Below, one piece after another: positions 5,620-42,887 of a stretch of DNA of 48,336 bases. The translations under genes and the position numbers were made by a program. The DNA comes from Patescibacteria group bacterium. GTDB taxonomy: Bacteria > Patescibacteriota > Minisyncoccia > Moranbacterales > GWC2-37-73. The number at the start of each line of letters is the position of its first letter. Position 1 is the stretch's first letter. The notes beneath the pieces were generated by a model. It did no database searches. It was not told the origin of the DNA and worked only from the letters and a program-made list of their open reading frames with translations. The stretch lies in contig JAKLIO010000004.1 in assembly GCA_022709565.1 (NCBI GenBank), forward strand, positions 1 through 48,336, in the 5' to 3' direction.

Positions 5620-6627
5620 ATGTTTATACGCAGAATCGGAATAGATTTAGGCACGGCGAACACTTTGGTTTTCATACCGGGTAAAGGAGTTGTGCTCAAT
5701 GAGCCGTCAGTAGTGGCAATTTCTCCCATAGAGAATATTGTTTTAGCTGTGGGCAATCAGGCCAAAGAGATGTTAGGACGGACACCAGATTCGATTGTAG
5801 CTTCGCGGCCGATGAAAGACGGAGTGATTGCCGATTATCGCGTGACCGAGGCTATGCTGAAATATTTCATCAACAAAGTGACCGGCAAAGTGCGTTTGTT
5901 TCGTCCGGAAATCATGATTTCAATTCCGGCCGGAGTAACTTCGACTGAAAGGCGGGCCGTTATTGACGCGGCCGTCAAAGCTGGCGCAAAATCAGCCTAT
6001 GTTGTCAAAGAACCGCTACTCGCGGCGATTGGGGCCGGAATTCCGATTCACAACGCGCAAGGCAATATGATCATCAATATCGGAGGTGGAACATCGGAGA
6101 TCGCGGTTATTTCGCTGGGAGGCGTTGTGGCAGCGCATAGCGCGCGCGTAGGCGGCAATAAATTTGATCAGGCAATCTCGGACTATATCAAGCGCAAATA
6201 TGGCCTGGCAGTGGGCGACAGAACAGCTGAGGATATTAAAAAAGAAATCGGCAGTGCGATTGCACAAGTCAAGGAAGAGCATATGGATGTCCGCGGGCGA
6301 GATTTGATGGGCGGCCTGCCTAAGACAATCAAAATATCTTCCAATGAAATCACGGAAGCCCTGCAGGACGAGCTCAGAGAAGTTATCAACGCAATCAAAA
6401 AAGTTTTTCAAGAGACTCCGCCGGAACTGGCGGCTGACATTATGGATAAAGGTATGGTGCTTTCGGGCGGAGGAGCGCTTTTGAGCAATCTCGACCAGCT
6501 TATCAGCAAAACAATCGGCGTGCCTTGCTACGTGGCGGACGATCCGCTTTTCTGCGTGATCAAAGGAATTGGCATTGCACTCGACAATTTGGAAGTGTAT
6601 AAGCGGACAATAATGCTATCTAAGTAG
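5620..6627 (+). CDS. mreB: Rod shape-determining protein MreB
   Basis: MreB is the bacterial actin that forms membrane-bound filaments and guides cell wall elongation. The 335-aa product begins with the actin-fold phosphate loop IGIDLGTANTLVF and NEPSVVAI, and continues with IMISIPAGVTSTERRAVIDA, INIGGGTSEIAVISLGG, GGNKFDQAISDYI and the C-terminal LSGGGALL. Length and motif order match MreB throughout. An N-terminal sequence with several hydrophobic residues fits membrane contact. The usual partners mreC, mreD and mrdA are not next to it here. A rod-like cell is suggested, which is inference. Confidence 0.96.
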   Translation: MFIRRIGIDLGTANTLVFIPGKGVVLNEPSVVAISPIENIVLAVGNQAKEMLGRTPDSIVASRPMKDGVIADYRVTEAMLKYFINKVTGKVRLFRPEIMISIPAGVTSTERRAVIDAAVKAGAKSAYVVKEPLLAAIGAGIPIHNAQGNMIINIGGGTSEIAVISLGGVVAAHSARVGGNKFDQAISDYIKRKYGLAVGDRTAEDIKKEIGSAIAQVKEEHMDVRGRDLMGGLPKTIKISSNEITEALQDELREVINAIKKVFQETPPELAADIMDKGMVLSGGGALLSNLDQLISKTIGVPCYVADDPLFCVIKGIGIALDNLEVYKRTIMLSK

Positions 6628-6697
6628 CTTTTAGCTTTCAGCTTCTTAGCTTCTTAGGATTTTCTAAAAAGCTAAAAAGCTAACGCCTGACAAGCTG

Positions 6698-7852
6698 ATG
6701 AAAATTGGTATCGATGCTTCCCGGGCATTTCTAAAAGACAGGACGGGAATTGAAGAATATTCATATCAAGTTATAAAAAACCTTGCAAAAATAGAAGGAG
6801 AGCAGGCCCGCCTCGCGTCGACGAGCGGTCATCTCCGCGAGTCGAGGCGGGTTGTTTTATATTTGCGCAAAAATCAAGAAATAGATTTTACTTTGCCAAA
6901 TAATTGGAAAGTCAAAATTATAAAGTGGCCGAGGTTTTGGACGCAGTTTGGTTTGTCTTTAGAAATATTTTTGCATCCGGTTGATGCGCTTTTTATTCCG
7001 GCGCACACGGTACCATGCATTCATCCTGCCCGCACAATAGTTACGATTCATGGTTTGGAATATGAATTTTGTCCAGAGGCTTATTCTTTTTGGGAACGGT
7101 TGTATATGCGCTCAACGATCAAAAAATCATGCAAGTGGGCGAGCAAAATAATCGCTGTGTCTGAAAACACAAAAAAAGATTTGATAAAATTATACAAAGT
7201 ACCGGCAGATAAAATCGAAGTGATCTACGAAGGATATGAAAATAGTAATCAGCAACCAGTAATCAGTAACCAGAAAAATACAGAAAAAGAAAACAGTTAC
7301 GAGTTACGGGTTACGAGTTACGGGAGTTATTTATTATTCATTGGTCGTCTTGAGGAGCGCAAGAATATTGTCGGCATTATCAAATCTTTTGAAGTTCTGA
7401 AAGAGCGCTACAAGATTCCGCACAAACTGGTTTTGGCGGGGAAGCCGGGATTCGGATATGAAAAAATAAAAAATGAAATTGCCAATGTGAATTGCGTGAA
7501 AGATATCATTGAAACAGGATTTGTGAGCGCGGAAGAAAAAAATTATTTGCTAAATAATGCAGCTGTGTTTGTTTTCCCGACTTTATACGAAGGTTTTGGT
7601 TTGCCGATTTTGGAAGCGCAAAATGCCGGCGTGCCGGTAGTGGCTTCTATAGAAGCTTCTATTCCTGAAGTGGCAGGGGATAGCGCGCTGCTTGTTGATT
7701 CCAATAATGCCGAAGAAATTGCTGATGCGGTTTATAAAATTATTTCTGACAAAAATCTAAAAAAAGACCTTGTTCGAAAAGGCCTTGAAAATATCCAGCG
7801 TTTCAGTTGGGAAAAATGCGGAAAGGAAATCGCGGATATTTTAAAAAAGTAA
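6698..7852 (+). CDS. Family GT4 glycosyltransferase carrying repeat-derived insertions
   Basis: The 384-aa GT-B enzyme probably transfers a sugar from a nucleotide donor to a surface glycan at the inner face of the membrane. The N-terminal domain begins MKIGIDASRAF with RTGIEEYSY. The C-terminal donor domain has LLFIGRLEERKN and the GT4 signature EGFGLPILE followed by AQNAGVPVV. Two parts look foreign. Residues 37-52 are coded by a 45-bp hairpin element (6807-6851). Residues about 180-210, in the linker between the two domains, are coded by tandem words (GTAATCAGCAACCA and ACGAGTTACGGG). Both keep the frame and neither touches the core motifs, so the enzyme is probably active. Donor and acceptor are unknown. 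Confidence 0.88.
   Translation: MKIGIDASRAFLKDRTGIEEYSYQVIKNLAKIEGEQARLASTSGHLRESRRVVLYLRKNQEIDFTLPNNWKVKIIKWPRFWTQFGLSLEIFLHPVDALFIPAHTVPCIHPARTIVTIHGLEYEFCPEAYSFWERLYMRSTIKKSCKWASKIIAVSENTKKDLIKLYKVPADKIEVIYEGYENSNQQPVISNQKNTEKENSYELRVTSYGSYLLFIGRLEERKNIVGIIKSFEVLKERYKIPHKLVLAGKPGFGYEKIKNEIANVNCVKDIIETGFVSAEEKNYLLNNAAVFVFPTLYEGFGLPILEAQNAGVPVVASIEASIPEVAGDSALLVDSNNAEEIADAVYKIISDKNLKKDLVRKGLENIQRFSWEKCGKEIADILKK
6807..6851 (+). repeat. 45-bp hairpin repeat element, copy 1 (in frame inside a glycosyltransferase gene)
   Basis: The 45 bases fold as outer stem CCCGCCT/AGGCGGG, a five-base bulge CGCGT, stem CGAC/GTCG, tandem GA/GA mismatches, stem GCGG/CCGC and a six-base loop. A second copy lies at 42087-42131 in prmC, where the inner stem is GCAA/TTGC, so both sides changed together. 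The length is a multiple of three and adds 15 codons without a stop. Confidence 0.85.
7236..7325 (+). repeat. Tandem short-word repeat inside the glycosyltransferase linker
   Basis: The stretch contains repeated words of the type AGTAATCAGCAACC and AGTTACGAGTTACGGG. The AATCAG/AACCAG word also occurs in the spacer near 27665-27695 and twice within prmC (around 42078-42160 and 42571-42601). Here it codes for Asn/Gln/Ser-rich residues between the two domains of the enzyme. Confidence 0.6.
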
Positions 7853-41945: not shown

Positions 41946-42887
41946 TTATAAAACAATCTTGCAAATTCGCCATTTGCCGGCCAAGTCTTTTGCAAAAAAT
42001 ATTTTAGCCTGAGGAAGAATATTTCTGATTAATTTTTCCAGCGGCCGTTTTTGCTCGGGGCTGAATTCTAGTAATACAGTAATCAGCCCGCCTCGCGTCG
42101 ACGAGCAATCGTCTTTGCGAGTCGAGGCGGGCAACCAGCAATCAGCAACCAGTATTTTTTTTATTTGCTTTAATAATTTTGTGTAATGTTGCAAGCCTTG
42201 CTCGGAACTGTATAGGGCGGATTTTGGTTCGTATTTTTTGACATTAATCGGAGCTGACTTATAAATTTCTTTGGAAAGATAGGGAAGATTGGCCACAACC
42301 ACTAACGTGGAATTTTCGATTTTCAATTTACAATTTTCAATAAACGGCGATAATAAATCGCCGTTAAGAAACATTATTTTTTTATCCACATTGTGAATTT
42401 TAGCGTTCTTCTTGGCAATTTTCAAAGCTTCATGGCTAATATCAGTTGCAAAATATTTTATTGTTTTTTTGATGCATGCTGCATGTTGCATGCTGTATGC
42501 TATTGAAATGATTATATTTCCGCTTCCTGTGCCTACATCTATAATAGCGGTTTTTAAATTTCTTTTTTTGCTGATTGCTGATTGCTGATTACTGATTACT
42601 GTATCTACAAGCAGTTCTGTTTCTGGGCGGGGGATTAGGTTATTTTCATTTACCATAAAATCCAAACCGTAAAATTCTTTGTGTCCGACTATATACGCAA
42701 TCGGTTCCCCCTTCACTCTTCTTCTGATATTTTTGCTGATTATTGAATTTTGCCTGCTGTTTACTGAATATTCCGGATACGTTAAAATAAATTCTCTCGT
42801 TTTATTGAGAGAATGGGCTAATATAAGCTCCAAATCGATGTAGTCGATTTTGGCTGAATATTTTTTTATTATTTCCTGAATTTGCAT
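41946..42887 (-). CDS. prmC: Peptide chain release factor N5-glutamine methyltransferase PrmC, with repeat-derived insertions
   Basis: PrmC methylates the GGQ glutamine of release factors using S-adenosylmethionine. The 313-aa product has the N-terminal helical part, the hinge GEPIAYIVGHKEFYGLDF, the motif IIDVGTGSGNI and the catalytic-site NLPYLS (NPPY in most PrmC). The target prfA lies 75 bp upstream on the same strand. The protein is about 35 residues longer than usual, and the extra parts match repeats found elsewhere: about residues 96-107 (AATCAG words), 130-138 (GCATGC words), 181-193 (AATTTTCAATTTAC words) and 243-267 (AACCAG words plus the 45-bp hairpin element). All keep the frame and lie in probable surface loops. 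Confidence 0.9.
   Translation of the reverse strand: MQIQEIIKKYSAKIDYIDLELILAHSLNKTREFILTYPEYSVNSRQNSIISKNIRRRVKGEPIAYIVGHKEFYGLDFMVNENNLIPRPETELLVDTVISNQQSAISKKRNLKTAIIDVGTGSGNIIISIAYSMQHAACIKKTIKYFATDISHEALKIAKKNAKIHNVDKKIMFLNGDLLSPFIENCKLKIENSTLVVVANLPYLSKEIYKSAPINVKKYEPKSALYSSEQGLQHYTKLLKQIKKILVADCWLPASTRKDDCSSTRGGLITVLLEFSPEQKRPLEKLIRNILPQAKIFFAKDLAGKWRICKIVL
42087..42131 (+). repeat. 45-bp hairpin repeat element, copy 2 (in frame inside prmC)
   Basis: Same fold as 6807-6851: CCCGCCT, bulge CGCGT, CGAC, GA, GCAA, loop TCGTCT, TTGC, GA, GTCG, AGGCGGG. Relative to copy 1 the inner stem changed from GCGG/CCGC to GCAA/TTGC on both sides, plus one loop base. It lies in the opposite orientation to the host gene, unlike copy 1. 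AATCAG/AACCAG words flank it on both sides. Confidence 0.85.
42571..42601 (-). repeat. Tandem short-word repeat inside prmC
   Basis: The plus strand reads CTGATTGCTGATTGCTGATT and continues with ACTGATTACTG. This is the complement of the AATCAG/AGTAATCAG words seen in the glycosyltransferase linker (7236-7290) and in the spacer near 27670. It codes for SNQQSAIS. Confidence 0.65.

Follow-up and report, generated by a model that had tools for sequence, protein, structure and literature searches.

A 36-45 bp palindromic element inserted in frame into genes of Moranbacterales and other CPR bacteria

In-frame palindromic inserts in protein-coding genes have so far been regarded as largely peculiar to Rickettsia and a few REP-rich genomes. 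The Rickettsia palindromic elements (RPEs) are 100-150 bp long and occur in Rickettsia and Wolbachia, where RPE-1 to RPE-7 are palindromic repeats that lie in frame in many genes and are translated, their hosts including a DNA polymerase III subunit, a recB-family exonuclease, and PheT (PMC3767692). The REPs, of which CGTC-tagged elements form one of two tag classes and GTAG-tagged elements the other (PMC3733652), are short hairpins with an unpaired motif, mainly intergenic and often dimeric, in which the tag is terminal and a CCA tail is present; members of the CGTC superfamily combine a terminal unpaired CGTC with an 8-9 bp stem starting with AT pairs, a 4-5 nt loop, and this tail. Some REPs are intragenic, and many of their hosts are genes of DNA repair or synthesis, such as uvrA, uvrB, uvrD, polA, and ligase genes, with tRNA-synthetase genes as further hosts (PMC3733652; Di Nocera 2013), and the bacteria with intragenic REPs include Opitutus and Rickettsia (PMC3733652). 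Inverted repeats within protein genes also appear in Nematomorpha mitochondria, where the coding palindromes are perfect inverted repeats of up to 284 bp (PMC6649704); these belong to animal mitochondria and are not a short dispersed unit like the element described here.

The element that we describe is, like an RPE, a single palindrome dispersed in many unrelated genes, in which the frame is kept and from whose homologues it is absent, and PheT is a host in this case as well. Unlike RPEs, its units are 36-45 bp long with near-invariant arms, and we set it apart from them on the published descriptions of size and taxon. As it has neither the size and taxonomic features of RPEs nor the terminal tag of the CGTC REPs, it is a new palindrome family with an RPE-like way of working, for which the evidence of translation is strong but indirect. 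The open-access literature yielded no report of the element in CPR or Moranbacteria, and the family has apparently not been described before.

The window, by which we mean the whole stretch of 48,336 nucleotides that was analysed, comes from a draft genome of 742 kb in 61 contigs that is 67.6% complete, and contains two 45-bp copies of the element on its plus strand. Copy 1 (6807-6851; CCCGCCTCGCGTCGACGAGCGGTCATCTCCGCGAGTCGAGGCGGG) lies at about residue 37 of a 384-residue GT4-like glycosyltransferase encoded on the plus strand (6698-7852), to which it adds ARLASTSGHLRESRR. Copy 2 (42087-42131), with the inner stem GCAA/TTGC, is read in antisense frame 0 as PASTRKDDCSSTRGG within the 313-residue product of prmC/hemK, a release-factor glutamine methyltransferase gene on the minus strand (41946-42887) that was identified by TIGR03534 (209.8 bits, over the cut-off) and by matches in the PDB to HemK homologues (1nv8 and others). 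The first-pass annotation had placed both copies correctly and had described them as in frame but in opposite orientations relative to their hosts; both open reading frames are real genes, copy 1 lying on the glycosyltransferase strand and copy 2 on the strand opposite prmC. Exactly five positions differ between the two: the inner stem has GG/CC in one copy and AA/TT in the other, and the loop has A in one and G in the other. With as many as 3 mismatches allowed, a 20-base core matched exactly twice in the window, where 100 shuffles led us to expect no match, and RNA folding of both copies was better than that of shuffled sequences (z -3.3 to -5.9). No Rfam family scored above its gathering score in the window.

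Further copies were readily found in the source genome, with 21 matches by BLAST and 24 with a covariance model. Applied to the order, this model detected the element in 45 of 128 genomes at 1 to 49 copies per genome, while several related genomes, including G009, were without any copy; every genome used is a draft or a metagenome bin. Beyond the order, 29 of 383 genomes in a class sample and 9 of 332 in a phylum sample matched the same model, whose matches are biased toward known arms, with one to four copies per matching genome. Close examination of 20 of these copies revealed that the arms CCCGCCTCGCGTCGAC and GCGAGTCGAGGCGGG are kept around a shorter tip and that most are 36-39 bp long; such shorter copies are rarer and occur in other families of the class and phylum. 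Among the matches listed from a scan with the core pattern, the organisms identifiable by name were all Candidatus Moranbacteria or Moraniibacteriota, the others being labelled only bacterium, Parcubacteria, or Patescibacteria, and viral contigs did not match the pattern. Conserved arms were a requirement of the pattern used to fetch the named loci, so their conservation in that set is in part circular.

Across copies, a 9-bp outer stem (CCCGCCTCG/CGAGGCGGG) is followed inward by a one-sided CGTCG, AC/GT, a GA/GA mismatch, an inner stem of the form GCNN/NNGC, and a tip that varies in length and sequence, with a short inner part conserved. The covariation of the inner stem that had been noticed between the two window copies is real. 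Over 59 distinct 45-mers, column pairs 21-30 (0.54) and 22-29 (0.52) exceed every other pair in mutual information, and sliding the partner lowers the count of two-sided inner-stem changes. GG/CC, GA/TC, and AA/TT types all occur, and thus the pairwise variation seen in two copies is general. Copies fall into subfamilies, among them a 42-bp form with 20 identical copies and a 44-bp form with seven, and the independent inner-stem changes are fewer than the copies. An alternative inner hairpin, in which columns 14-18 would pair with 23-27, was rejected, its covariation being below that of columns 19-22 with 29-32.

Comparison of the hosts with homologues revealed empty sites. Fetched loci are labelled here with L-numbers (such as L010 and L086), and the L086 glycosyltransferase, whose sequence at this point is EEYSYQVIENLRDKLNNQQ-VVLYVKK, is short of exactly 15 residues; the DNA junction is CAGCAGG^TTGTTTTATAT in both L086 and copy 1, which are otherwise identical there. 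For prmC, L073 lacks the element, and in L058 a copy that differs and is 42 bp long lies at nearly this position. Insert-free homologues were found for RecG, UvrA, UvrB, GlmS, MnmA, TatD, UvrC, RfbB, PNPase, PheT, and the glycosyltransferase, with exact alignment around a gap of 14-15 residues; examples that align on both sides are, besides the glycosyltransferase of L086, RecG of L099, UvrA of L076, UvrB of L085, GlmS of L123, MnmA of L078, TatD of L032, and RfbB of L132. Alignment of UvrB with PDB 9gy7 likewise leaves an exact gap of 15 residues directly before the DESH motif, and GatB has extra residues at the element relative to 3al0. At 16 empty sites, ten of them in genes, the alignment is gapless and precise, with neither duplication nor deletion. 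The base before the junction is a purine and the base after it a pyrimidine (R^Y) at 103 of 155 junctions, which show this preference only and no conserved target tetranucleotide. Classical MITEs, which are small, non-autonomous, and dispersed like the element described here, leave target-site duplications, whereas none is present at the 16 precise empty sites. The earlier proposal of an in-frame palindromic insertion that is tolerated as extra peptide is supported by the empty orthologous sites, the additional copies, and the pairwise variation of the inner stem. We conclude that the element is very probably a non-autonomous, hairpin-forming mobile palindrome of CPR that is most abundant in Moranbacterales and is kept in proteins as about 15 extra residues. 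Clean empty sites and the many CPR genomes make several questions testable: movement without target duplication, which positions in proteins are tolerant, and what makes uvrABC and related repair genes preferred hosts in lineages that are not related.

In our reading, the whole unit inserts blunt, without target-site duplication or loss and with a preference for R^Y, into intergenic DNA, often into other repeats, and into genes, where only frame-keeping insertions at permissive positions survive. Whole units insert precisely and without duplication, copies are near-identical across genera, and an asymmetric segment is conserved; these features point to recognition in trans, and an enzyme with specificity for the arms, folded or duplex, would account for mobility. 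In 1.0 Mb of fetched sequence we recognised no autonomous form whose arms were separated. Beyond the counted copies, the arms matched 59 times, and among the 40 matches listed all but one belong to complete units, the lone exception being a 3' arm near another copy.

Such an enzyme could be a Y1 (IS200-like, HUH) transposase that mobilises the hairpin in the manner of REP/RAYT systems by recognising single-stranded DNA that is folded and leaves a CGTC-like motif unpaired, an explanation that we consider unlikely. The folded unit does have a conserved asymmetric segment containing CGTC, its insertion leaves no target-site duplication, and Y1_Tnp is found in 35 of 45 element-bearing genomes of the order versus 36 of 83 others (odds ratio 4.6, with kinship ignored). 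However, Y1_Tnp was undetected in seven draft genomes carrying 3 or more copies, among them a genome with 20, and among the listed Y1 genes and listed copies of element-rich draft genomes, compared by eye, none are adjacent. The target also shows R^Y in place of a conserved tetranucleotide, and the tag, terminal in CGTC REPs, is internal here, at positions 10-13 of a longer hairpin in which the following stem starts with GAC and no tail is present. The element thus resembles REPs as a short hairpin with an unpaired motif, in its intragenic location, and in its categories of host, but it differs from these mainly intergenic and often dimeric repeats in that it forms single units, 18 of the 21 copies in the source genome lying inside genes.

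The hosts were characterised in a sample of 162 distinct copies. As a gene test, each element was excised in silico, and an ORF of at least 150 aa was then required across the joined flanks, an order of steps that avoids the circularity of demanding a read-through ORF; by this test 76 of the 162 copies lie in genes. NCBIfam names, obtained from representatives of 40 of the 49 host clusters, revealed that genes for DNA repair, recombination, and replication account for 22 of 74 insertions: uvrA and uvrC with four each, uvrB and recG with three each, and recJ, fpg, polA, ligA, topA, gyrB, holB, and a uvrD/pcrA-type helicase with one each. The uvrA, uvrB, and uvrC genes together hold 11 of the 74 insertions, at about 8 distinct sites, versus a coding share of 0.7% estimated from typical gene lengths (p ~4e-8 for 8 of 66 distinct sites, 66 being a rough count). 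Insertions are frequent, too, in genes for tRNA synthetases and for enzymes that modify tRNA. In L010 (2205-9573), uvrC, uvrA, and uvrB lie within about 8 kb with one element in each, and in L092 (3049-6042) a GyrB of 998 aa contains both an element and an intein-like region (NF052663, residues 453-777).

Selection, target preference, and tolerance are possible causes of this skew toward repair genes. Uptake sequences of Neisseria and Haemophilus are enriched in genome maintenance genes, and a role as a DNA-uptake or recombination signal, retained because it promotes the acquisition of DNA by natural transformation, would explain the excess of the element in uvrA, uvrB, uvrC, and the other repair-type hosts; the identity of the arms across genera is also in keeping with such a role. 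Uptake sequences occur roughly once per kb, though, and the copy number given above for the order is far below this, with several related genomes devoid of the element, so that we judge this explanation quite improbable. Returning to a mobile palindrome, we regard it as possible, if doubtful, that it belongs to a CPR-wide mobile hairpin system with a dedicated enzyme that would recognise the conserved arms, blunt R^Y insertion of the 36-45 bp unit, recurrent sites in orthologous genes, and a bias toward genes of nucleotide-excision repair and recombination that parallels that of unrelated REPs from other phyla. If this were so, it would mean a shared mechanism or a selective link between hairpin mobility and DNA repair.

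When the element was put back, 74 of the 76 ORFs were still open. Its length is divisible by three in 75 of the 76 gene copies, compared with 64 of 80 copies between genes (Fisher p = 1.4e-4). Of the six frames, two account for 64 of the 76 gene copies, with 42 in antisense frame 0, 22 in sense frame 2, and 12 in the other four together (p = 4e-21). Antisense frame 0 encodes PASTRGDDRSSTRGG and sense frame 2 xPPRVDERSSPRVEAG. As read from their sequences, the preferred peptides are hydrophilic with a net charge near zero and the avoided ones are more basic; selection on the translated peptide is therefore the simplest reason for the frame preference, and we infer that the cell translates the element and retains it as additional peptide. 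The openness of all six frames, seen in 131 of the 162 copies, is unremarkable, as it is also found in 40% of composition-matched shuffles. Outside the order, some 38-bp copies are found in genes that stay open, which requires an additional gain or loss of one or two bases. In three relatives from other families of the class (L158, L160, and L164), a 38-bp copy, whose length is no multiple of three, is found at one shared site of a gene whose reading frame is open both before and after it. A mini-intron or bypass element, removed from the RNA or skipped in translation, would likewise combine a stable hairpin with a location in conserved enzymes, but it would need neither a length divisible by three nor a preference for two frames, both of which are observed, and we give this explanation very little weight.

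Several insertion sites are recurrent. In TatD, L032 and L080 have copies at the same nucleotide position in opposite orientation, and L016 is empty there; a site in RfbB is common to L127 (45 bp) and L139 (42 bp) and empty in L132; and a codon boundary in UvrA is common to the source genome and L046 and empty in L076. The elements resemble each other more than their flanks do (42/45 versus ~60% for UvrA). These observations suggest that permissive or preferred positions received insertions repeatedly, or that copies converted one another, although inheritance with loss may be an alternative. A comparable pattern is reported for RPE-4, RPE-6, and RPE-7, and, as among RPEs, different groups of element can occupy one orthologous site (PMC3767692). 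That the element is ancestral protein sequence, or that its DNA match is a chance coincidence, is practically dismissed: the same site is filled in some orthologues of UvrA, UvrB, UvrC, TatD, RfbB, and HypD, but exactly these residues are absent at the empty orthologous sites, one DNA unit recurs in unrelated proteins in both orientations and several frames, and shuffles predict zero matches. For annotation and structure prediction it is relevant that some peptides in CPR proteins may be recent acquisitions and not ancestral.

A large number of copies lie inside other repeats. Arrays with a 7-bp period surround 8 of 75 gene copies versus 1.1% of random coding positions (p = 2e-6), and between genes copies are nested in CGAATTA-type arrays. 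In the window, a repeat with a 7-bp period (CAACCAGCAATCAGCAACCAGTA; 42132-42154, no strand assigned) adjoins copy 2, which is nested in it. Short repeats of this period, differing in sequence between genomes, occupy the C-terminal part of prmC (window 42132-42154; L058, L073, and L090), a pattern as if one permissive spot had been invaded again and again. The spacer upstream of the glycosyltransferase (window 6600-6697) consists of AGCTTTTAGCTTT-like short repeats, and like arrays flank the copy at L010:2205.

Some intergenic copies lie in or next to sequence resembling the 5' half of a tRNA, including the D-arm (L015:2340-2440, L108, L084, L125, L162, and L166), and in L015, L108, L084, L125, and L166 they are immediately followed by a small ORF judged by eye to be GIY-YIG-like. 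The copy at L136:270-314 splits a sequence like a tRNA D-loop (AGCTCAGTTGG^TTAGAGCG), where no complete tRNA was called. Interruption of tRNA genes was rejected, as ARAGORN called no tRNA across the junction of several intergenic copies with the element in or out. The uvrB gene of L010 (8353-10548) has two further in-frame insertions, one AT-rich with a 7-bp periodicity and about 28 aa long, the other a segment of about 108 bp with the inverted ends CCTGCCCGCAATGCTACGC/GCATAGCGTTGCAGGCGGG. Finally, a 650-aa ORF in L021 (1676-3628), probably an O-antigen-ligase-like membrane protein, contains several in-frame copies of a second palindrome, TGTTCCACGTGGAACA, which we take to be close to the parS consensus and which yields the peptides MFHVEHF and NVPRGTF; this locus also has two copies of the element, each at the centre of a TGTTCCACGTGGAACA palindrome.
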